Shown here piece after piece: positions 24,379 to 36,455 of a DNA stretch of 64,000 bases. Position 1 is the first letter of the stretch. Every line of letters starts with the position of its first letter. Made by a program: the position numbers and the translations under genes. The DNA comes from Nonomuraea angiospora. Lineage in GTDB: Bacteria > Actinomycetota > Actinomycetes > Streptosporangiales > Streptosporangiaceae. Below the pieces are notes generated by a model. The model did not search any database, was not told where the DNA came from, and saw only the letters and a program-made list of their open reading frames with translations. Where the stretch lies: the NCBI RefSeq assembly GCF_014873145.1, contig NZ_JADBEK010000001.1, positions 9,734,001-9,798,000 of the forward strand, read 5' to 3'.

Positions 24379-26085
24379 GTGGTCAAGGAGTTGCTCTCCC
24401 ACGTCCGCCCGCACCGGAAGATCCTGATCCTGGGCGGGTTATTGGGCTTGATCGGCTCGGCGGCGGGCCTCGCCATGCCGTTGCTGGCCAAATACGTCGT
24501 GGACGCGTTCGGCGAGACCGGCTCGATGGCCGGGCCGTTGCTGGGGCTGACCGCGGCGGTGCTGATCGGCGCGGTCGTGTCGGCCGCCGGAAGCTATCTG
24601 ATGGAGCGCACGGGCGAGGGCATCGTGCTCGGCGCCCGGCGCAAGCTCGTGGACCGGATGCTGCGCCTCAAGGTCGCCGACGTGGACCGGCTCAAGCCCG
24701 GCGACCTGCTGTCGCGGGTGACGGGTGACACGACCTTGCTGCGGGCGGTGCTGACCAACGGGATCGTCGAGTCCGTCAGCGCCACGTTCATGCTGGTCGG
24801 GGCCATCATCATGATGGCGACCATGGACGGCGTGCTGCTGCTGGTCACGCTGCTCGTGGTGGTGGTGATCGGCGGGCTCGTCGCGCTGATCATGCCGAGG
24901 ATCCAGCGGGCGCAGACCCACGCCCAGGAGGCCGTGGGCGAGATGGGGGCCGTGCTGGACCGGGCGCTGCAGGCGTACCGGACCGTCAAGGCCAGCGGCG
25001 CGGAGGAGCGGGAGATCGCGGTGGTCGGCGACGCGGCGGTGCGCGCCCGCGACCGGGGGCTGCAGGTCGCCGGGTGGACGTCGCTCGCGGGAGTGGCGAC
25101 GTGGATGGCGGTGCAGATCGCGTTCCTCGCCGTGCTGGCCGTCGGCGGGGCCAGGGTCGCGTCGGGCACGCTGGAGGTGTCGTCGCTGATCGCGTTCCTG
25201 CTCTACCTGTTCTACCTGGTGCCGCCGATCGGGCAGCTCGTCCAGGGCGGCGTCCAGCTCCAGCAGGGGCTGGCCGCGATGAAGCGGATCAAGGAGATCG
25301 AGGACCTGCCCGCCGAGCCGGTCGGCGCCGCCGTCGCGGGGACCGCCGAGCCGGTCGGGGTGAGGTTCCAGGACGTGGTCTTCAAGTACGGCGACGACCG
25401 GCCGACCGTGCACGACGGGGTCACCTTCGAGGTGCCGCCCGGCGGGCTGACCGCGCTGGTGGGGCCGTCGGGCGCGGGCAAGTCGACGGTGTTCGCGCTG
25501 ATCGAGCGCTTCTACGACCACCAGAAGGGGCTCATCGCCGTCGGCGGGCGCGACATCCGCGACTGGCCGCTGGGCGAGCTGCGCGCCGCCCTCGGGTACG
25601 TCGAGCAGGACGCCCCCGTGCTGGCCGGCACCCTCAGGGAGAACCTGCTCTTCGCCGCCCAGGACGCCACCGAGGACGAGCTGCGCCGGGCCGTCGCCCG
25701 TACCAGGCTCGACGACCTGGTGGACAGGCTGCCCGAAGGGCTGGAGACGCCGGTCGGGCACCGCGGCGTGCTGCTGTCGGGCGGCGAGCGCCAGCGCGTC
25801 GCCATCGCCAGGGCGCTGCTGCGCAAGCCCCGGCTGCTGCTGCTCGACGAGGCCACCTCCCAGCTCGACGCGGTCAACGAGCTGCGGCTGCGCGAGGTCA
25901 TCGCCGAGGTGGCCACGGAGACGACCGTGCTGGTGATCGCCCACCGGCTGTCCACCGTGACGAACGCGGACCGGATCGTGGTCATGGAAGGGGGCGGCGT
26001 ACGGGCGGTCGGGACGCACGAATCGCTGGTCGGGGAGGACGAGCTCTACAGGGAGCTGGCCGCCACCCAGTTCCTCGTCAGTTAA
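24379..26085 (+). CDS. ABC exporter, fused permease and ATPase
   Basis: A 568-residue half-transporter. An N-terminal six-helix domain (about 1-300) is followed by the ATPase domain: Walker A GPSGAGKST (about 361), Q-loop region GYVEQDAPVLAGT, signature LLSGGERQR (about 465) and Walker B LLLLDEATSQLD. It would work as a homodimer in drug or lipid export; the substrate is unknown. Start GTG at 24379 is chosen because AAGGAG lies 5 bp upstream; GTG at 24376 is too close. No partner half-transporter is adjacent. Confidence 0.9.
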   Translation: MVKELLSHVRPHRKILILGGLLGLIGSAAGLAMPLLAKYVVDAFGETGSMAGPLLGLTAAVLIGAVVSAAGSYLMERTGEGIVLGARRKLVDRMLRLKVADVDRLKPGDLLSRVTGDTTLLRAVLTNGIVESVSATFMLVGAIIMMATMDGVLLLVTLLVVVVIGGLVALIMPRIQRAQTHAQEAVGEMGAVLDRALQAYRTVKASGAEEREIAVVGDAAVRARDRGLQVAGWTSLAGVATWMAVQIAFLAVLAVGGARVASGTLEVSSLIAFLLYLFYLVPPIGQLVQGGVQLQQGLAAMKRIKEIEDLPAEPVGAAVAGTAEPVGVRFQDVVFKYGDDRPTVHDGVTFEVPPGGLTALVGPSGAGKSTVFALIERFYDHQKGLIAVGGRDIRDWPLGELRAALGYVEQDAPVLAGTLRENLLFAAQDATEDELRRAVARTRLDDLVDRLPEGLETPVGHRGVLLSGGERQRVAIARALLRKPRLLLLDEATSQLDAVNELRLREVIAEVATETTVLVIAHRLSTVTNADRIVVMEGGGVRAVGTHESLVGEDELYRELAATQFLVS

Positions 26086-26161
26086 TCCATGTAGGCGCGG
26101 GCTCCGCTGCCTGCAACGGCCCGCTGAGACGCGGTCCGTTGTACTCTGCGGGTGACATATG

Positions 26162-26177
26162 TGAATGTTTTCATTCA
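26162..26177 (+). promoter_or_regulatory. Putative RpiR-type operator before hutU
   Basis: TGAATG-tttt-CATTCA is a perfect 6-bp inverted repeat 12 bp upstream of the hutU start. The same arms occur before the second hut operon at 31747-31762, which makes it a strong candidate for the site of the RpiR-family regulator encoded after hutU. Confidence 0.7.
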
Positions 26178-26188
26178 GGAGGGTCACG

Positions 26189-27838
26189 ATGAGCCGCAGC
26201 GTGCGCGCGCCGCGAGGCACGACGATCACCGCCAAGGGGTGGCCGCAGGAGGCGGCGCTCCGCATGCTCCAGAACAACCTGGACCCGGAGGTCGCCGAGC
26301 ACCCCGAGCAGCTGGTCGTCTACGGCGGCTCGGGCAAGGCCGCGCGTGACTGGGCGTCGTTCGACGCGATGGTCAGGACGCTGACGACGCTCGAGGGCGA
26401 CGAGACCCTCCTGGTCCAGTCGGGGCGCCCGGTGGGCGTGTTCCGCACCCACGAGTGGGCGCCCCGGGTGCTCATCGCCAACTCCAACCTGGTGCCCGAC
26501 TGGGCCAACTGGGAGGAGTTCCGGCGGCTGGAGGCGGCCGGGCTCACCATGTACGGGCAGATGACCGCCGGGTCGTGGATCTACATCGGCACGCAGGGCA
26601 TCCTGCAGGGGACGTACGAGACGTTCGCGGCCGTGGCCGCCAAACGCTTCGGAGGTTCGCTGGCCGGGACGATCACGCTCACGGCCGGCCTGGGCGGGAT
26701 GGGCGGCGCCCAGCCCTTGGCCGTCACCATGAACGGCGGGGTGGCGATCTGCGTCGACTGCGACCCGCGCTCGGTCACCCGGCGGATCGAGCACCGCTAC
26801 CTCGACGTGCAGGCGTCCTCGCTGGACGAGGCCCTGCGGCTGGCGTACGCGGCGCGCGACGAGCGCCGCCCCCTGTCCATCGGGGTCGTCGCGAACGCCG
26901 CCGAGGCCGTGCCCGACCTGCTCGCCCGCGGGGCCGAGATCGACATCGTCACCGACCAGACCTCGGCGCACGACCCCCTGATGTACCTGCCGCTGGGGGT
27001 CGCCTTCGAGGACATGGCCTCGGAGCGGGACAAGGACCCGGCCGGCTTCACCGAGCGGGCCCGCACCTCGATGGCACGGCACGTGGAGGCGATGGTCGGC
27101 TTCAAGGACGCCGGGGCGGAGGTGTTCGACTACGGCAACTCCATCCGGGGCGAGGCGCAGCTGGCCGGCTACGGGCGGGCCTTCGACTTCCCCGGGTTCG
27201 TGCCCGCGTACATCAGGCCGCTGTTCTGCGAGGGCAAGGGCCCGTTCCGGTGGGCGGCCCTGAGCGGCGACCCCGCCGACATCGCCGCGACCGACCGGGC
27301 CATCCTGGAGCTCTTCCCCGAGAACGAGGGGCTCGCCCGGTGGATCAGGAAGGCCGGGGAGAAGGTCCACTTCCAGGGGCTGCCCGCGCGGATCTGCTGG
27401 CTCGGCTACGGCGAGCGCAATGTCGCGGGGGAGCGCTTCAACGACATGGTGGCCTCGGGCGAGCTGCGGGCGCCCGTCGTGATCGGGCGCGACCACCTCG
27501 ACAGCGGCTCCGTGGCCTCGCCGTACCGCGAGACGGAGGCGATGGCGGACGGTTCGGACGCGATCGCGGACTGGCCCCTGCTGAACGCCATGCTCAACAC
27601 GGCCTCGGGGGCCGCCTGGGTGTCCATCCACCACGGGGGCGGGGTCGGGATCGGGCGGTCCATCCACGCCGGCCAGGTGACGGTGGCCGACGGCAGCGCG
27701 CTGGCGGGGGAGAAGCTGAACCGCGTGCTGACCAACGACCCGGGGACGGGGGTCATGCGGCACGTGGACGCGGGTTACGAGGAGGCCGCCGACGTCGCCG
27801 CCGCCCGCGGCGTCCGCATCCCGATGCGCGAGTCCTGA
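26189..27838 (+). CDS. hutU: Urocanate hydratase
   Basis: A 549-residue NAD-dependent urocanase, converting urocanate to imidazolone propionate in histidine degradation. It has [22 protein letters not shown], the NAD-binding [13 protein letters not shown], and the conserved block [25 protein letters not shown] with the family cysteine, ending [17 protein letters not shown]. The ATG at 26189 follows GGAGGG; the upstream in-frame ATG is inside the operator. hutH, which would supply urocanate, is not in this window. Confidence 0.97.
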
Positions 27839-27940
27839 TCCTCCGCGCTTCCGCCACCCCTCGACCCAGGAGTGCGGCGTGGGGTGGGGGTTGTGGGGTT
27901 GGTGGGATGAGAATGCGGGGCGGGAAGCGTTGGAGGTGGC

Positions 27941-28777
27941 GTGGCGGACGGATATCACGGTGGGCTGAGCGTGCTGCTGGATGGCCGGAGGCTGTCGCCC
28001 GTGCAGCGGAGGATCGCGCACTACCTCACCGAGCATCTCGATGAGGCGATCTTCCTGTCGAGCGTGGAGCTGGCCGAGCGGGCAGGGGTGAGCCAGCCGT
28101 CCGTGACCCGGTTCGCGATGGTGCTGGGCTTCGCCGGATATCCCGAGCTGCGGCAGGCGCTGCGCCCGCTCGTGCTGGGCGGCGCGGAGGTGGCGCAGCC
28201 GCAGGAGAGCCTGCTGCGCGGCGCCATCGACTGCGAGATCCGCAACCTCGCGATCGTCAGGGAGCGGCTGGCGGCCTTCCCGCTCAAGGAGCTCGGCGAG
28301 CAGCTGGCCGCCACCGAGCCGCTGCCCGTGGTGGGGCTGCGGGTCTCCTGCGGGCTGGCCACCACCTTCGCCTACTACGCCCGCCGCATCCACCCCGACG
28401 TGCGGCTGCTCACGCACGGCGGGTCGGAGCTGGTCGACGGGCTGCACGCGGCCCGCCGGGCGGGCGCGGAGTGGGTGGTGGCCGTGGTCCTGCCGAGATA
28501 TCCGGCCGAGGCCGTGCAGGCGCTGGAGTACGCGGAGAAGATGGGGCTGCGGGTGGCGGCCATAACGGATAAGTCGGATTTCCCGGCGGAGGTCGTGCTG
28601 GACGCCCCCGTCGGCGACCGGCTCGTGTTCGACTCGCACGCGGCGCCGCTCGCCCTGGCCATGGCCCTGGTCGAGGCCATGGCCGACGCGGCGCCGCTGC
28701 GCACCCAGGCCCGGCTCGAGGAGTACGAGCGGATGACCGACGAGACCGGTACGTTCCTACCCGGCGATCCTGCGTAG
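27941..28777 (+). CDS. MurR/RpiR-family transcriptional regulator, likely of the hut genes
   Basis: A 278-residue regulator. An N-terminal HTH_6 domain (residues 1-80; VELAERAGVSQPSVTRFAMVLGFAGYPELRQAL) is followed by a SIS domain (about 110-260; GLRVSCGLATTFAYYARRI, then the segment AAITDKSDFPAEVVLDAPV). SIS domains bind phosphosugars or other small effectors. The GTG at 27941 has a strong ribosome site (GGAGGTGGC). Placed between hutU and the rest of hut, it is the best candidate to bind TGAATG-n4-CATTCA. Confidence 0.88.
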   Translation: MADGYHGGLSVLLDGRRLSPVQRRIAHYLTEHLDEAIFLSSVELAERAGVSQPSVTRFAMVLGFAGYPELRQALRPLVLGGAEVAQPQESLLRGAIDCEIRNLAIVRERLAAFPLKELGEQLAATEPLPVVGLRVSCGLATTFAYYARRIHPDVRLLTHGGSELVDGLHAARRAGAEWVVAVVLPRYPAEAVQALEYAEKMGLRVAAITDKSDFPAEVVLDAPVGDRLVFDSHAAPLALAMALVEAMADAAPLRTQARLEEYERMTDETGTFLPGDPA

Positions 28778-29506
28778 CGAGCGCATCGACCAGATCGTGG
28801 TGAACACCGCCAGCACGATGAACACCGCGAACGCGATCGGGATCGACGAGTCCGACAACCGGCCGGCGAACAGCGCCCGCCCCGCCTCGACCGCGTGGTA
28901 GAGCGGGTTGATCGGGGCGAGCGTCTGCATCCAGCCGGGCGCGAACGAGATCGGGATGAACAGCCCGGCCAGCAGCATGATCGGCAGCATGAACAGGTTG
29001 AGCGTCTGCGACATGCCGTTCTCGTCGCGCACGGTCAGCGCCAGCCCCTGGGACAGCCCCGAGGCGAACAGCCCGGTGGCGGCCATGAGCAGCAGCACCA
29101 GCACCACCTCGACGGCCCCGATGCGCACGCCCATCGCGACGGCCACGACGAGCACGAGGATCGCCTGGCACACCAGCACGACCATGTCCTTGGCCACCCG
29201 CCCGAGGACGATGGCCGGCCGCCAGGCGGGGCTGACGGCGTACCGTTCGAGCGAGCCGTTGCGCAGCTCGGCGATCAGCCCGAACCCCGAGAACAGCGAC
29301 CCGAAGACCGCGATCATCATCATCGAGGCCGGCGTGAACATCCGCAGCGCGTCCACCGTCGAGCCGCCCGGCGTCAGCGACTTCAGCAGCGGCGCGAACA
29401 TGAGCAGGTAGAGCACCGGCTGCATGATGCCGAACAGCGGCCAGATCGGGTTGCTGAACGACTTCTTCAGCTCGTAGCCGGTGAACAGGGCGATGTGGCG
29501 GATCAC
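28757..29506 (-). CDS. ABC-2 type transporter permease
   Basis: A 249-residue membrane protein with six predicted helices and the DrrB-type arrangement (YAVSPAWRPAIVLGRVAKDMVVLVCQAILV). The family exports drugs or lipids with a DrrA-like ATPase. It overlaps the ATPase gene by 4 bp, so they are coupled. Its end overlaps the rpiR gene by 21 bp on the opposite strand. Confidence 0.92.
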   Translation of the reverse strand: MIRHIALFTGYELKKSFSNPIWPLFGIMQPVLYLLMFAPLLKSLTPGGSTVDALRMFTPASMMMIAVFGSLFSGFGLIAELRNGSLERYAVSPAWRPAIVLGRVAKDMVVLVCQAILVLVVAVAMGVRIGAVEVVLVLLLMAATGLFASGLSQGLALTVRDENGMSQTLNLFMLPIMLLAGLFIPISFAPGWMQTLAPINPLYHAVEAGRALFAGRLSDSSIPIAFAVFIVLAVFTTIWSMRSLRRIAG

Positions 29507-30456
29507 GAGGCGGCTCCGGTGTCGCGGAGGGAACGGCCGGTCTTGGCCAGGAAGACGTCGTCGAGCGTGGAGCGGTCGAGCGCGATCGAGCTCAGCCCCA
29601 GCCCCTGCTCCTCAAGGGCCCGCAGCAGCGCGGGCAGCGTGTGCTCGCCGTCGTCGACGTAGACGCGCAGCAGGTCCTCGTCGACGCGGGTCTCGCGGGC
29701 GTACGGCTTGAGCGTGTCCGCGGCCCGCTCCAGGTCGTCCACCCTGAGCGTGATCACGTCGCCGGAGACCTCCCGCTTGAGCTCTCCGGGGGTGCCCTCG
29801 GCCACGACCTCGCCATGGTCGACGATCATGAGGCGGTCGCACAGCGCGTCGGCCTCGTCGAGGTAGTGGGTGCTGAGCAGCACGCTCGTGCCGGCCTCGC
29901 GCAGCTGCCTGATGCGGTCCCAGAGGTTGGCGCGGTTCTGCGGGTCGAGGCCGGTGGTGGGCTCGTCGAGGAAGAGCAGCGGCGGGTTGTGCACCAGCCC
30001 GATCGCGATGGCCACGCGCCGCTTCTGCCCGCCCGACAGGGTACGGCCGGGGCGGTCGGCCGTCTCGGTCAGGTCGAAGCGCTCCAGCGCCTCGGCGGTG
30101 GCCCGCTTCGGGTCGGCCATGGCGTGGATCCTGGCGGCCATCATGATCTGGGCCCTGGCGCTCGTGGTGTCCTCCACGCCGCCGGCCTGGCTCACGTACC
30201 CGAGTTTGCGCCGGACGGCGGCGGGCTCCTTGAGCAGGTCGTGGCCCGCGACGGTGGCCCTGCCCGCGTCGGGGGCGATCAGCGTGGAGAGCATCCTGAT
30301 CGTGGTGGTCTTGCCGGCCCCGTTGGGGCCGAGCACGCCGAAGATCTCACCTTCCGCGACCTCGAGGTCCACCCCGCGGACGGCCTCGACGGTCTGCGTG
30401 CCCTTCCTGCTCCTGGTGGTGAACGTCTTTCGCAGGCCCTGCGCCTGAATGATCAT
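29503..30456 (-). CDS. ABC transporter ATP-binding protein (DrrA-like)
   Basis: A 317-residue ATPase. Walker A is GPNGAGKTTTIRML, signature is LSGGQKRRVAIAIGL, and Walker B is LLFLDEPTTGLDP. The C-terminal 80 residues (LRVDDLERAADTLKPYARETR and the end TLDDVFLAKTGRSL) match the daunorubicin-resistance subfamily. The ATG at 30456 (MIIQAQGLRKTF) is chosen; longer frames would cover the PadR gene. Operon: padR, ATPase, permease. Substrate unknown. Confidence 0.93.
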   Translation of the reverse strand: MIIQAQGLRKTFTTRSRKGTQTVEAVRGVDLEVAEGEIFGVLGPNGAGKTTTIRMLSTLIAPDAGRATVAGHDLLKEPAAVRRKLGYVSQAGGVEDTTSARAQIMMAARIHAMADPKRATAEALERFDLTETADRPGRTLSGGQKRRVAIAIGLVHNPPLLFLDEPTTGLDPQNRANLWDRIRQLREAGTSVLLSTHYLDEADALCDRLMIVDHGEVVAEGTPGELKREVSGDVITLRVDDLERAADTLKPYARETRVDEDLLRVYVDDGEHTLPALLRALEEQGLGLSSIALDRSTLDDVFLAKTGRSLRDTGAAS

Positions 30457-30472
30457 GGGGGGATTCAGCTCC

Positions 30473-31006
30473 TTAGGGCAATTCGTCGGCCTCAACCCGT
30501 TCGACGGCCTTCTCGACCCAGTCGAGCTGGGCCTGGACCATGGATCTGTTGAGGCGGAGGTTCTCGTCGATGTGCTGGGGAGCGCCGAAGCGCTGCTTGG
30601 CGCCCATGGCATGACCGAGGATCTCGACGCTCATTCTGAGCTGCTGCATCCTGCTGTAAAGAGCCTGCAGGAGCTCCTGCTTGTCCAGCCGGTCCATGAA
30701 TGTCACCGCCACCTGGAACGGATCGACGATGGGCCTGACCTCGTGCCAGGCGGTCAGCAACATCCGGTGGAACTCTTCGCGGCCGTGCTCGGTCAGCTCG
30801 TAGACGACCTTGCCGCCCCTGCCCGCCTCGACGACGGCCAGGAGCCCTTCGTCGGCCATCTTGCTCAGCCCGTGGTAGATCGACCCGAAGGCGACGTTCG
30901 CCCATTGGTCGGCACCCATCACCTCCAGCCGCCGCCGGACCCCGTAGCCGTTCATGGGACCGTCGAGCAGGGCGCCGAGGATGAGGATGCGCGTCGAAGC
31001 AGACAT
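30473..31006 (-). CDS. PadR-family transcriptional regulator
   Basis: A 177-residue regulator. The winged helix is ILILGALLDGPMNGYGVRRRLEVMGADQWANVAFGSIYHGLSKMADEGLL. The C-terminal part is helical (FMDRLDKQELLQALYSRMQQLRMSVEILG), as in the PadR-s2 type. It is the first gene of an operon with the ABC-2 exporter, 16 bp before the ATPase start, and is probably its local repressor, responding to the exported compound. A dyad lies 14 bp upstream. Confidence 0.9.
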   Translation of the reverse strand: MSASTRILILGALLDGPMNGYGVRRRLEVMGADQWANVAFGSIYHGLSKMADEGLLAVVEAGRGGKVVYELTEHGREEFHRMLLTAWHEVRPIVDPFQVAVTFMDRLDKQELLQALYSRMQQLRMSVEILGHAMGAKQRFGAPQHIDENLRLNRSMVQAQLDWVEKAVERVEADELP

Positions 31007-31019
31007 GGGTGCAAGTTTG

Positions 31020-31035
31020 TATTCAAATTTGAGTA
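31020..31035. promoter_or_regulatory. PadR operator candidate
   Basis: TATTCAAATTTGAGTA is a 16-bp palindrome with one mismatched pair (core TCAAATTTGA). It lies between the divergent padR and SDR genes and is AT-rich in an otherwise GC-rich region. Confidence 0.6.
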
Positions 31036-31062
31036 GCCGTCAACCTCAATAAGCTGATCTCC

Positions 31063-31749
31063 ATGAACGAACGACCGACTGCGCTGGTCACAGGCGCTTC
31101 GCGCGGGATCGGCGCGGCCGTGGCCGAGGCGCTGGGCCCCACGCACCACGTGATACTCAACGGCCGCGACGAGGAGTCGCTGGCCGCCGTGGCGGCCGGG
31201 CTGCCCGACGCGCGCGTCTGGCCGGCGGAGCTGACGGCGCTCACCGAGGCGGCCGTCGCCGGGATCGGACGGCTCGACGTGCTCGTGCACTCGGCCGGGA
31301 TCAACCGGATGGGCCGGATCGCCGACCTGTCCGCCGCCGCGTGGCGCGAGACGCTGGAGGTGAACGTCGTCGCGGTCGCCGAGCTGACCCGGCTGCTGCT
31401 GCCCGCCCTGCGCACGGCCGGGGGGCACGTGGTCTGCGTCAACTCGGGCTCGGGGCAGCGGGCCAACCCCGAGTGGGGCGCCTACGCGGCCAGCAAGTTC
31501 GCGCTGAAGGCGTTCGCCGACGCGCTGCGGCTGGAGGAGCCGCGGCTGAGGGTGACGACCGTCTACCCGGGCCGGACGGCCACCGACATGCAGCGCGAGC
31601 TGCGCCGCTACGAGGGCGGCGAGTTCGAGCCCGAGAAGTACCTCACGCCGCGGAGCGTGGCGCGGGCCGTGCTGGCCGCCGTCACCGCGGGCCCCGACGC
31701 CCACCTCACCGAGCTGACCCTCCGGCCCAGGGGAGGGCCTGTCAACTGA
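31063..31749 (+). CDS. SDR-family oxidoreductase
   Basis: A 228-residue short-chain dehydrogenase. It has TGASRGIG near residue 8, SAGINRMG, and the active-site YAASKFALKAFADALRLEE. Substrate unknown. The ATG at 31063 diverges from the padR gene. Its stop codon is embedded in the operator of the second hut operon. Confidence 0.9.
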   Translation: MNERPTALVTGASRGIGAAVAEALGPTHHVILNGRDEESLAAVAAGLPDARVWPAELTALTEAAVAGIGRLDVLVHSAGINRMGRIADLSAAAWRETLEVNVVAVAELTRLLLPALRTAGGHVVCVNSGSGQRANPEWGAYAASKFALKAFADALRLEEPRLRVTTVYPGRTATDMQRELRRYEGGEFEPEKYLTPRSVARAVLAAVTAGPDAHLTELTLRPRGGPVN

Positions 31750-31762
31750 ATGGATCCATTCA
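31747..31762 (+). promoter_or_regulatory. Second putative RpiR-type operator, hut operon
   Basis: TGAATG-gatc-CATTCA is a perfect 16-bp palindrome with the same arms as the site before hutU. It lies 13 bp before the start of the amidohydrolase gene, overlapping the stop of the SDR gene. Confidence 0.7.
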
Positions 31763-31775
31763 CTACAGTGGGGCC

Positions 31776-32954
31776 ATGCTTGAACCACTCGCGCACATAG
31801 GACGGGATCCGGCGACCGGGGGCTACGTCAGGGACGCCTGGTCGGCCGCTGACATGGAGCTTCGCGAGTGGTTCGCGGGCGAGGCCGGGCGACGGGGGCT
31901 CGACCTGCGCGAAGACCGCAACGGCAACCTCTGGGCGTGGTGGGGCGACCCTTCCGGCCGCCCCGGCGTGGTGACCGGGAGCCACCTCGACTCCGTACGG
32001 CAGGGCGGCGCGTACGACGGGCCGCTCGGGGTCGTGTCGGCCTTCGCCGCCCTCGACCTCCTGAAGGAGCGCGGGACCACGCCGGCCAGGCCGGTCGGCG
32101 TGGTCTGCTTCACCGACGAGGAGGGCGCCAGGTTCGGGGTGCCCTGCATGGGGTCGAGGCTGCTCACGGGCGTGCTGGCGCCCGAGCGGGCCCTCGCGCT
32201 CACCGACGACTCCGGCGACACGCTGGCCGACGTCATGACGAGGGCCGGGCGGGCGCCGCACGAGGTGGGGCGGGACGACGAGACGCTCGCCACGGTCGCC
32301 ACGTTCGTGGAGCTCCACGTCGAGCAGGGCCAGGCGCTCGTCCACGAGGGAAGGCCGGTGGGCGTGGCCGCGGCGATCTGGCCGCACGGACGCTGGCGCT
32401 TCGACTTCCACGGCCGGGCCGACCACGCGGGCACCACCCGGCTGGCCGACCGGGACGACCCGATGCTGCCGTTCGCCCGCATGGTGCTGGCCGCCCGCGA
32501 GGCCGCGGCCGGCCGCGACGTGGTGGCCACGGTCGGCAAGGTACGCGTCTCCCCGGGCAACGCCAACGCCATCCCCGGCCTGGTCTCGGCCTGGCTCGAC
32601 GCCCGCGGGGCGGACGAGGCCGCCGTGCGCGCCCTCGTCGCCGAGCTGACCGAGCTCACCGACCAGGCGGGGGCCGCGGTGCGGGAGGAGTCGTGGACGC
32701 CGATCGTCGACTTCGACGTGCCGCTCAGGGAACGCCTGGCCAGGGTCGCGGGAGGCGATACGCCCGCGCCCGTCCTGCCCACGGGGGCGGGCCACGACGC
32801 GGGGATCCTGGCCTCGGCGGGCGTCCCGAGCGCGATGTTGTTCGTCAGGAACCCCACAGGCGTGTCCCATTCCCCCGACGAGCACGCCGAGCGGGCTGAC
32901 TGCGAGGCGGGAGTCGTCGCACTCGCGGACGTGCTGGAGGACCTGTGCGGCTGA
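31776..32954 (+). CDS. Allantoate amidohydrolase-family enzyme in the hut operon
   Basis: A 392-residue M20-type amidohydrolase. Metal-site motifs are [36 protein letters not shown] and the C-terminal GAGHDAG. In hut clusters lacking HutG this family is thought to hydrolyse N-formyl-glutamate formed by HutF; that role is inferred here because it is the first gene before hutF and hutI. The ATG at 31776 is close behind the operator, so transcripts may be short-leadered. It ends 10 bp inside hutF. Confidence 0.85.
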
Positions 32955-34267
32955 CCTACTGGTGCGAACAGGCCTGGCTGCCCGGCGGGGTCACCGACGG
33001 CGTGCTCATCGAGGTCGAGGGCGAAAGGATCGCGAGCGTCGCCCAGGGCCCGCCGGGCACGGCCGAGCGCCTGCCGGGGATCACCGTTCCCGGCCTGGCC
33101 AACGCCCACTCCCACGCCTTCCACCGCGCGCTGCGCGGCACCGCCCAGGAGGGCAAGGGCGACTTCTGGACCTGGCGCGAGCGGATGTACGAGGTGGCGG
33201 GGGCGCTGGAGCCCGACTCCTACCTGCGGCTGGCCCGGGCGGTCTACGCCGAGATGGCGCTGGCCGGGGTGACCTGCGTGGGCGAGTTCCACTACCTGCA
33301 CCACGGGCCGGACGGCCGCCCGTACGACGACGCCAACGAGATGGGCCACGCCCTCGTCCGCGCGGCCCGCGAGGCGGGCCTGCGCATCGCGCTGCTCGAC
33401 ACCTGCTACCTGACCGGCGGCATCGGCGCCCCGCTGACCGGCGCGCAGCTGCGCTTCACCGACGGCGACGCCGAGCGCTGGGCGGTCAGGGCCGACGACC
33501 TGGCGGCGGCCTACGAGGGGCAGCCCGACGTGGAGATCGGCGCGGCCATCCACTCCGTGCGCGCGGTGCCGCCGGAGCAGATGCCGGTCGTGGCCGAGTT
33601 CTCCCACCGGCACGCGGGCCCCCTCCACATGCACGTGTCCGAGCAGCCCGCCGAGAACGCCGCCTGCGTGGAGATGTACGCGGCCACGCCGGTTCAGGTG
33701 CTGCACGAGCGAGGCGCCCTGGGGCCGCGCTCGACCGCCGTGCACGCCACCCACCTGACCGACGTGGACATCGAGCTGATCGCCCAGTCCGGCACCCACA
33801 TCTGCATGTGCCCCACCACCGAACGCGACCTCGCCGACGGCATCGGCCCGGCCAGGGCGGCGGCCGACCGGGGCGCGCAGATCACGCTCGGCTCCGACAG
33901 CCACGCCGTGATCGACCTGTTCGAGGAGGCGCGCGGGGTCGAGCTGGACGAGCGGCTGCGCAGCGGCAGGCGCGGCAACTGGAGCGCCGCCGACCTGCTC
34001 GCCGCCGCGACCGCCGCCGGCCACGCCTCCCTCGGCTTCCCCGACGCGGGGCTGCTGGTGCCCGGCGCGTGGGCCGACCTGGTGTCGGTACGCCTCGACT
34101 CCGTACGCACGGCGGGCACGGGCGGGCCGGAGGCCGTGGTGTTCGCGGCCACGGCGGCGGACGTGCACTCGGTGGTCTCCGGCGGCCGCCGGGTCGTCAC
34201 GGACGGGCGGCACCGGCTCGGCGACGTCGGATCCCTGCTGGCAGAGGCGATACGGAGGGTGAGATGA
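32945..34267 (+). CDS. hutF: Formimidoylglutamate deiminase
   Basis: A 440-residue amidohydrolase-superfamily enzyme converting N-formimidoyl-glutamate to N-formyl-glutamate and ammonia. Metal ligands appear in [13 protein letters not shown], in [11 protein letters not shown], in [10 protein letters not shown] and in [11 protein letters not shown]. The GTG at 32945 follows GGAGG and overlaps the preceding stop; the end overlaps hutI by 4 bp. This commits the pathway to the deiminase branch of histidine use. Confidence 0.93.
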
Positions 34268-35409
34268 GCACGACGCTGATCGACGGGATCGGATCGCTGT
34301 ACACCGGCGACCCCGAGCGCGAGGAGATCCCCGACGCGGCGCTGGTCGTGGCGGACGGCCTGGTCGCCTGGGCCGGGCCCGCCGCCCAGGCCCCCGACGC
34401 CGACGAGCGGGTGGACGTCGGGGGCCGCGCCGTCATCCCCGGCTTCGTGGACAGCCACGCCCACCTGATCTTCGCCGGTGACCGGACGGCCGAGTTCCAG
34501 GCCCGCATGTCCGGCGAGCCGTACACCGGTGGCGGCATCAGGACCACGGTCGCCGCCACCCGGCAGGCCGGCGACGCCGAGCTGGCCGCCCACGCGCGTG
34601 CCCTGGTGGCCGAGATGCTCGCCCAGGGCACCACGACCGTCGAGATCAAGAGCGGCTACGGCCTGACCGTCGAGGACGAGCGGCGCTCGCTGGAGATCGC
34701 CGCCGGGCTGACCGGCGAGACCACCTTCCTGGGGGCGCACGTCGTGCCCGCCGGCATGGACGCCGACTCCTACGTGCGGCTGGTCGCCGGGGAGATGCTC
34801 GACGCGTGCGCCCCCCACGCCAGGTGGATCGACGTGTTCTGCGAGCGCGGGGCCTTCGACGGCGACCAGACGCGCGAGATCCTGGGCGCCGGGCTCAAGG
34901 CGGGGCTGGGGGCGCGGGTGCACGCCAACCAGCTCGGGGAGGGGCCGGGCGTCCGCATCGCCTGCGAGCTGGGCGCCGCCTCGGCCGACCACTGCACCCA
35001 TCTGACACCGGCCGACGTGGACGCGCTGGCGTCGTCGGACACGGTGGCGACGCTGCTGCCGGGGGCGGAGTTCTCGACGCGGTCGCCGTACCCGGACGCC
35101 CGGCGGCTGATCGACGCGGGGGCCACCGTGGCGCTGGCTACCGACTGCAACCCGGGGTCGTCGTTCACGTCGTCGATGGCGTTCTGCGTGGCGCTGGCCG
35201 TACGCGAGATGCGCATGACGCCGCTGGAGGCGATCAGGGCGGCGACGTACGGCGGGGCGCGCGCGCTGCGCCGTACGGACGTAGGCTGGCTGCGGCCCGG
35301 GGCCCGCGCGGACCTCGTCGTGCTCGATGCCCCCTCCTATGTACACCTTGCCTATCGGCCCGGCGTCCCCCTCGTTCACCAGGTGTTTCGCGGCGGTCTC
35401 CTCCTTTAG
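34264..35409 (+). CDS. hutI: Imidazolonepropionase
   Basis: A 381-residue zinc hydrolase opening the imidazolone ring to formimidoyl-glutamate. Motifs: [17 protein letters not shown] (metal His pair), [37 protein letters not shown] and [10 protein letters not shown] with the catalytic Asp. ATG at 34264 overlaps the hutF stop (ATGA). It is the last gene of the operon. A small hairpin (TCCTCC-ttta-GGAGGA) covers its stop codon. Confidence 0.96.
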
Positions 35410-35513
35410 GAGGACATCCAGAACCATCCCTGCGGCGTACTGGTTTTGGGAATCTTTGCATTTGGTCGGACGTTGGCCGGGTATAGAACGCAGCTGCGGA
35501 ACGAGGTGCGGGG

Positions 35514-36455
35514 ATGGCAAGGCCTACGGGGAGTCGCACGCAGGAGCAGCACATCGCCGAGCGCGATCTGCTGGGGACATACCTGGCTGAGATCGGCAGG
35601 GTCCCGCTGCTCACGGCGGAGGAGGAAGTGGAGCTCGCCAAGCGGATCGAGGCGGGTCTCTTCGCCGAGCAGCTGCTCGACAGCGGGGGCTCGGAGCCGC
35701 GCATCGGGGACGCGGCCGACGAGGAGCTGGAGCGCCTGGCGATCTCCGGCCAGCGGGCGAAGGACGAGTTCATCCAGGCCAACCTGCGCCTGGTGGTGGC
35801 GGTGGCCCGGAAATACTCGGGGCGGGGGATGCCGCTGATCGACCTGGTGCAGGAGGGGAACCTGGGGCTGGTCAGGGCGGTGGAGAAGTTCGACTACCGG
35901 CGGGGGTACAAGTTCTCCACGTACGCGACGTGGTGGATCCGGCAGTCGGTGGGGCGTGCCATCCACGAGCAGGCCCGCCCGGTGCGCCTGCCCACGCACG
36001 CGGGGGAGCAGATGACGCGGCTGATGCGGGTCCGCCGCGACATGCTGGCGGAGTTCGACGCCGAGCCCACGGACGACGATCTCGCCGAGATCCTCGACCT
36101 GCCGATCGAGCGCGTACGCGAGCTGCGGCGCTGGGCCTCCGACCCGGTCTCGCTCCAGCTCGGGGTGGGCGACGAGGACGAGACGGAGCTCGGCGACATG
36201 ATCGCCGACGAGACGTGGGCCGATCCCGAGCAGCAGGCCATCGACATCCTGGAGCGCGAGCGGCTGGACCAGTGGCTGACGGGGCTCGAGGGCGACACCA
36301 GCGAGATGCTGCGGTGGCGCTACGGGCTGGTGGACGGGCGCGAGCACACGCTCACGGAGGTCGGGGAACGCTACGGCATCGGCCGCGACCGCGCCCGCCG
36401 CATCGAACGCGACGCTCTGGCCCGCCTCCGCAAAATGGCCACCGCGGCCGCCTGA
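35514..36455 (+). CDS. RNA polymerase sigma factor, group 2 (sigma-70 family)
   Basis: A 313-residue sigma factor with region 1.2 (DLLGTYLAEIGRVPLLTAEEEVELAKRIEAG), region 2 (IQANLRLVVAVARKYSGRGMPLIDLVQEGNLGLVRAVEKFDYRRGYKFSTYATWWIRQSVGRAI), region 3 and a region 4.2 helix-turn-helix (TLTEVGERYGIGRDRARRIERDALARLRK). It lacks the long region 1.1 of the housekeeping factor, so it is a non-essential HrdB paralogue type. ATG at 35514 follows CGAGGTG. TATAGA (35483-35488) may be the -10 of its promoter. Confidence 0.92.
   Translation: MARPTGSRTQEQHIAERDLLGTYLAEIGRVPLLTAEEEVELAKRIEAGLFAEQLLDSGGSEPRIGDAADEELERLAISGQRAKDEFIQANLRLVVAVARKYSGRGMPLIDLVQEGNLGLVRAVEKFDYRRGYKFSTYATWWIRQSVGRAIHEQARPVRLPTHAGEQMTRLMRVRRDMLAEFDAEPTDDDLAEILDLPIERVRELRRWASDPVSLQLGVGDEDETELGDMIADETWADPEQQAIDILERERLDQWLTGLEGDTSEMLRWRYGLVDGREHTLTEVGERYGIGRDRARRIERDALARLRKMATAAA

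Follow-up and report, generated by a model that had tools for sequence, protein, structure and literature searches.

A palindrome before two histidine-degradation units of Nonomuraea angiospora is a probable operator for the neighbouring RpiR-family regulator

Which protein controls histidine degradation in Nonomuraea angiospora? The question is raised by a 64,000-nucleotide stretch of its genome (NCBI RefSeq assembly GCF_014873145.1, contig NZ_JADBEK010000001.1, positions 9,734,001 to 9,798,000 of the forward strand; hereafter the window, whose numbering is used below). The palindrome TGAATG-N4-CATTCA stands there before hutU and before an operon of an M20 hydrolase gene, hutF and hutI, and an RpiR-family gene follows hutU. 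A model that saw only the letters of the DNA (the sequence-only reading) had pointed out the two sites and named the RpiR-family protein as their natural binder. Our analysis suggests that the palindrome is, in all probability, the hut operator, where the RpiR protein would repress both units until released by a pathway intermediate.

The first copy of the palindrome (26162-26177, TGAATGTTTTCATTCA) lies 11 bp 5' of the hutU ATG at 26189, and its final base is the first base of the AGGAGG ribosome-binding sequence of hutU. The second (31747-31762, TGAATGGATCCATTCA), a perfect 16-bp palindrome, lies 13 bp 5' of the operon ATG at 31776; neither copy is assigned a strand. Their starts are 5,585 bp apart, which confirms the 5.6 kb given in the sequence-only reading. 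Its 13 bp before the operon was also correct, but its 12 bp before hutU should be 11. The window holds no further site with zero or one mismatch. At up to three mismatches it holds nine places against 5.0 expected, and 9 of 100 shuffles reach nine, so that these loose matches are background.

The whole genome (13.09 Mb, a single contig) contains exactly two exact copies, both before hut genes, and no exact copy of the reversed control pattern. This extends to the genome what had been noticed for the promoters inspected earlier, and the palindrome is not scattered over many unrelated loci, the outcome that had been named as fatal to the idea. With up to one mismatch there are five places, three beyond the exact pair, against two for the reversed pattern. 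One of the three is within an open reading frame (ORF), one is 5' of a ferrochelatase-like ORF and one 5' of a P-loop-protein-like ORF, both labels coming from a reading of the letters and not from a domain scan; none of the three looks like a hut gene. At the G+C content of the window, 0.041 exact copies are expected per genome and the chance of at least two is 0.0008, a value computed before counting that both copies precede hut genes.

Conservation of the sites was followed through the genus, where 48 of 54 genomes have the exact motif (two copies in 35, one in 10, three in 3, none in 6) and none of the 54 has the reversed control. Eight of the ten single-copy genomes have the second site at one mismatch; the copy in G029 is away from hut genes, and the locus of G051 lay outside the set examined. 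Two genomes without an exact copy (G026 and G037) have both sites at one mismatch; in the remaining four, hutU is gone from the locus. In the two-copy genomes G010 and G043, one of the copies is not at a hut gene; this placement of copies covered the loci of seven genomes only partly or not at all. The 47 genus genomes besides that of the window have the site, at up to one mismatch, at 39 of 39 hutU and 39 of 39 M20 genes in the locus, with both sites in 38 genomes and both exact in 28.

Across loci L068-L147, in which a recheck found no overlooked hutU gene, 10 of the 12 arm columns are invariant over 59 hutU sites and 11 of 12 over 60 M20 sites; the spacer columns carry 0.12-1.58 bit and the flanks average 0.25-0.74 bit. 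Because part of this set was fetched by motif, a fairer test is given by 28 loci taken from RpiR hits, and there the motif was found within 300 bp, at up to one mismatch, for 24 of 24 hutU and 24 of 24 M20 genes. Upstream of the SDR, hutI, sigma, ABC, PadR and hutF genes of these 28 loci the best match has at least three mismatches, except for one PadR and two hutF genes; M20 was not found in the loci of the latter two. Named loci, which partly repeat the same strains, show the site at 21 of 22 hutU genes (the exception is Actinocrinis) and 22 of 24 M20-like genes. Altogether the site is present at 62 of the 65 hutU genes that adjoin this RpiR, a total that includes six loci added because their genomes have no exact copy there, and the three hutU genes without it belong to one genus. 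Since the copies are rare, and are sited and conserved at hut genes, we regard the palindrome as the operator of a small hut regulon.

Some further copies were seen in the genus. The third exact copy of G019 stands between a second RpiR gene (46%) and a second hutU. Around the stray copies in G010, G015, G029, G035 and G043, no homologue of the window hut genes was found in 20-kb loci (hutH was not queried); that of G015, a third exact copy (L083:9992-10025), is part of a 34-nt inverted repeat inside an ORF.

We then asked which protein might bind the palindrome. In 54 of 54 complete loci rpiR lies within 700 bp of hutU. PadR is missing from 18 of 54 loci, the ABC pair from 13 and SDR from 4, with the sites retained. 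Among 200 genomes of the family, 190 of which have hutU, 54 of the 66 that have this RpiR carry the exact motif, versus 8 of the 134 that lack it, and all 33 genomes with at least two copies have this RpiR. The 66 genomes were set by hand (best E ≤1e-70 plus the split hits of G171 and G227, the ambiguous split hit of G084 being counted as without), and because the genomes are related the p-value of the co-occurrence is only a guide. Five of the eight genomes with the motif and without this RpiR were checked; no window gene is nearby, and one copy is on a 3-kb contig. When the locus has no hutU, the motif is found 5' of rpiR itself (L071, with one mismatch, L084, L087, L124, L147 and L332, and by coordinates G196, G209 and G240), which fits autoregulation of rpiR.

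In a tree of 35 RpiR proteins, with two rows containing stops dropped and weak deep forks, the window branch, including a genus that lacks the motif, falls in one supported clade (99/96), apart from the hut-linked branch of Streptomyces. Among the 120 matches listed for the window RpiR, named relatives are mostly from Nonomuraea, and two are filed under Actinomadura. By adjacency, co-occurrence and the motif before its own gene, the protein encoded at 27941-28777 (+ strand) is by far the best candidate binder, so that the natural binder of the sequence-only reading stands as a prediction.

The position of the sites suggests how the protein might act. A -10-like box, TACAGT (31764-31769, + strand), begins one base after the second operator and ends 6 bases 5' of the M20 ATG, and TAnnnT or ATAAT follows the M20 site by 0-3 bases in 59 of 60 loci. 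A transcription start about 7 nt past TACAGT would make the M20 transcript leaderless. For hutU the predicted promoter has the -10-like box TACTCT (26142-26147, + strand), 14 bases 5' of the first operator, and TA(C/G)TCT was counted by eye at 15 of the 15 hutU sites displayed. A scan for the sigma-70 consensus found no promoter at either site, so it is only their conservation that argues for the boxes. With a -10-like box 0-3 bases past the M20 site across loci, and 6 bases from the ATG in the window, a bound protein would block RNA polymerase, and the site positions at both promoters fit repression, which we infer in preference to activation.

In the mechanism we propose, an RpiR dimer, or half a tetramer, would bind TGAATG-N4-CATTCA and repress the two promoters. 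At M20-hutF-hutI it would cover the stretch adjoining the -10 box, and at hutU(-rpiR) its place would be shortly past the start, in contact with the ribosome-binding sequence. The rpiR gene, proposed to be co-transcribed with hutU and to encode the candidate repressor, has no separate site behind hutU and is therefore probably autoregulated. When histidine is degraded, an intermediate of the pathway, with urocanate as the first guess, would bind the altered SIS domain and free the DNA.

The protein has the N-terminal HTH_6 domain (PF01418, 54.6 bits, cut-off 28.3). The Pfam SIS model gave E 0.058, under its cut-off. An AlphaFold2 model (mean predicted local distance difference test score 84.8) matches the isomerase domain of PDB entry 3sho with a template-modelling score of 0.85 by target length and a root-mean-square deviation of 2.2 Å, and Foldseek gave a full-length fold match to RccR and VvNanR at E ~1e-11. 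The C-terminal SIS fold is thus supported by the model despite the Pfam score, as had been proposed from the letters. The SSSGST stretch of VvNanR aligns with PRYPAE here; the phosphate-binding Ser/Thr loop, a mark of sugar-sensing RpiR members and not of the fold, is not present. RYP is found in 17 of 17 rows of one RpiR alignment (A1), two of them (L142 and L145) from fetched loci without a hut gene, and in 14 of 22 rows of another (A2), where eight Streptomyces paralogues read PRH. In the portion of a preprint available to us (PMC12713135), the effector phosphate of SpNanR is held by Ser135, Ser179, Ser181 and Thr184. As the phosphate loop is replaced by PRYP, a phosphosugar effector is unlikely, and our guess is a carboxylate, perhaps urocanate.

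Several observations weigh against the assignment of this operator to RpiR, and two of them, a genus without the motif and seven genomes that have RpiR only, hold our confidence down. In the genus of G120, G150 and G171, with RpiR (59-69%) beside hutU, no copy at up to two mismatches was found in the fetched loci, including the region upstream of M20 in the two loci where that gene is seen. The recognition helix there is identical to that of motif-bearing members, and comparison of the helix as a covariation test was uninformative, the helix being the same with and without the motif. Seven genomes (G006, G021, G023, G029, G044, G132 and G235) keep RpiR in a locus without hutU and without the motif, and G023 and G132 keep hutF in it. 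Either the regulon has been rewired in such genomes or RpiR has further targets. The recognition helix SQPSVTRFA also occurs in Streptomyces paralogues, in a neighbourhood with other palindromes, so that it is no proof of specificity. The Sphaerobacter RpiR of known structure (3sho) has WRY in the same loop; loss of the Ser loop is thus not special to hut regulators, nor is the change proof of a histidine-related effector.

The regulon is also smaller than expected. The sequence-only reading had it include hutH and a histidine permease besides the two hut units, and only the units stood. The hutH gene of this genome lies elsewhere (G000:C1:3629126, 651 bits), and its 4.5-kb locus, including 1.5 kb 5' of the match, has no site at up to three mismatches, a further point against the assignment, and hutH is not supported as a member in this genome. 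For a permease, the genome offers no third exact copy. As a separate observation, the loci of the motif-less genus (L318, L319 and L324) have a conserved CGTA(A/G)GATCCG..TACGGAG 5' of hutU, perhaps a replacement operator.

How else could these sites be explained? The palindrome might be a true hut operator bound by another, unlinked transcription factor, with rpiR a passenger of the cluster. The seven genomes that keep RpiR without the motif would fit this, as would the genus that has RpiR, hutU and hutF without it. However, the motif tracks this RpiR across the 200 genomes, precedes rpiR where hutU is absent, and is found near a related RpiR in Actinophytocola amid quite different neighbours, and none of the other regulator genes is a fixed member of the locus, PadR being missing as noted above; we consider such a factor unlikely, though it is the most serious of the rivals. 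It could also be asked whether the palindrome acts as RNA, in a leader hairpin that hides the ribosome-binding site. The hutU copy does overlap the ribosome-binding sequence, and within a larger stem it forms a 6-bp hairpin (z -1.7), but the M20 site, being 5' of its -10-like box, would be left out of a transcript started from that box. The sixth hutU arm position is changed in 14 of 59 loci (A in 12, T in 2) while its partner stays C, so that the pairing is not kept, and no Rfam family matches positions 25800-32400. On the box, the lost pairing and the Rfam result we set this explanation aside as very improbable.

Chance, or shared descent without function, is harder still to credit. The motif is short and nearly all the loci come from related bacteria, but the arms are nearly invariant while the spacer and flanks vary, the two sites themselves differ in spacer and flanks, and about 0.04 copies are expected per genome with no reversed control in the 54 genus genomes. 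Binding of the palindrome by the RpiR protein, with repression of both hut units, is the explanation we prefer.

Outside the family the picture is more varied. In a scan across the class, an exact copy turned up in 26 of 394 genomes. Ten of them belong to the family; among the 16 that do not, a hut-type gene was seen in short loci (1.6-3 kb) only in G316. In two Actinophytocola genomes the motif lies near a related RpiR (51 and 52%). The operon that it precedes there encodes a betaine-type ABC importer and a homologue of histidine ammonia-lyase, an aromatic amino acid lyase that scores under the hutH cut-off. In L212 (2317-2332) an exact motif follows rpiR by 45 bp; that of L224 (10290-10305) has one mismatch and is 1.5 kb from rpiR, with a lyase gene between. 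The operon is possibly a unit for uptake and breakdown of histidine or histidine-betaine. In G316, which belongs to a further family, the single exact copy (L184:2554-2569) is followed after 49 bp by a lyase gene that scores 209 bits against hutH (cut-off 539). An RpiR gene (41%) lies 7 kb away from this copy and hutU 8.6 kb away; the region also holds a true-looking hutH, 76% to that of the window genome. Only in the two Actinophytocola genomes was a site thus seen before a transporter and lyase operon; in G316 the site precedes a lyase gene.

Five Streptomyces genomes have RpiR (44-48% identity) 1.6 to 6.6 kb from hutU, and hutU is preceded there by TTGACT-N5-TATTCA-N13-TGAAT in four and by the same with N14 in the fifth; the half-sites are thus shared and the arrangement differs. 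With two mismatches allowed, a scan for this arrangement found it in 55 of 61 Streptomyces genomes, in most of them without a mismatch; of these places, the loci examined link only two, those of G259 and G582, to hutU. We give even odds to a wider proposal: that this RpiR branch became the histidine-catabolism repressor of many Actinobacteria, with its Arg-Tyr-Pro segment binding a pathway carboxylate such as urocanate, and that relatives in Streptomyces and in a second cluster type use rearranged TGAAT half-sites.

That second hut cluster type, RpiR (45-50%)-hutU-M20-hutF-hutI, occurs in some family genomes (L088, L115, L143, L144, L187 and L188); other TGAAT/ATTCA arrangements are present 5' of hutU in L088, L187 and L188 and none in L115, L143 and L144. 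A TGAAA..TTTCA-like palindrome lies just 3' of a Streptomyces RpiR paralogue (49-55%; L169-L175) that has no hut genes close by. In Actinocrinis (L226), hutH and RpiR together are divergent from hutU-M20-hutF-hutI, and the best match before hutU has two mismatches.

The genes of the window locus, all on the + strand unless stated, were assigned from domain models. They are hutU, urocanate hydratase (26189-27838; TIGR01228, 903 bits, cut-off 375), the RpiR gene, the M20 hydrolase gene (31776-32954; NCBIfam allantoate amidohydrolase NF006770, 596 bits, cut-off 372), which is first in its operon, hutF, formimidoylglutamate deiminase (32945-34267; TIGR02022, 471 bits, cut-off 413), and hutI, imidazolonepropionase, with a putative start codon (34249-35409; TIGR01224, 377 bits, cut-off 298). 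Between rpiR and M20 the opposite strand carries a pair of ABC-2 transporter genes and one for a PadR regulator; an SDR gene comes next. In most of these loci hutI, or else hutF, is followed by a sigma-70-like factor gene (35514-36455 in the window) at 82-99% identity. N-formylglutamate hydrolase (PF05013) was found over the cut-off in none of the 54 genus genomes, with two weak hits below it, yet hutF implies that formylglutamate is made; the M20 protein may be the missing N-formylglutamate hydrolase.

If the assignment is true, a large group of soil bacteria gains a named regulator of histidine degradation, and the RpiR family a member that responds to something other than a sugar phosphate; for this branch the annotation 'MurR/RpiR family transcriptional regulator' could be replaced by a function. 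Literature listings, by which this was judged, gave no paper on an RpiR regulator of histidine degradation; predicted-regulon databases were not searched.

The hut genes of Bacillus are controlled by HutP, an RNA-binding antiterminator. Antitermination on RNA differs from the use of a DNA site which, in one of the two units here, stands 5' of the -10-like box, and no HutP-like RNA element was matched in Rfam over 25800-32400. In proteobacteria the histidine-degradation genes are repressed by HutC of the GntR family (PMC5343134, seen in part), a different protein family from RpiR; among 10 proteins scanned (26189-36455) none has a GntR or an IclR domain, and the regulators encoded in that stretch are RpiR and PadR. 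The sequence-only reading was right to contrast this with HutC and HutP, but its list was incomplete, as Corynebacterium uses an IclR-type HutR. According to the part of the source available (PMC8222616), HutR of Corynebacterium resistens regulates the hut cluster through the palindromic site GTCTGWWATWCCAGAC. It is alike in being an actinobacterial hut-cluster regulator with a palindrome and different in family and motif. A hut repressor of Staphylococcus aureus is also named HutR (PMC3616918, in part, with no protein family given), and we drew on parts of other literature (PMC9413887, PMC1978522, PMC2000904, PMC5489143 and PMC13118837).

The closest likeness is to RpiR regulators with solved structures, VvNanR, SpNanR, RccR and MurR, which share HTH_6 and the SIS domain. 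Phosphosugar-binding members differ in keeping the conserved phosphate loop where this protein has PRYP, and the targets here are histidine genes. As far as the available parts of these sources go, SpNanR, an RpiR protein with a solved DNA complex, recognizes TGAAA/TTTCA half-sites; its operator is likewise an inverted repeat with TGAA half-sites, but the distance from TGAA to TTCA is 6 there versus 8 here. RccR, in the same partial accounts, uses one half-site at two spacings, as may also occur here across relatives.

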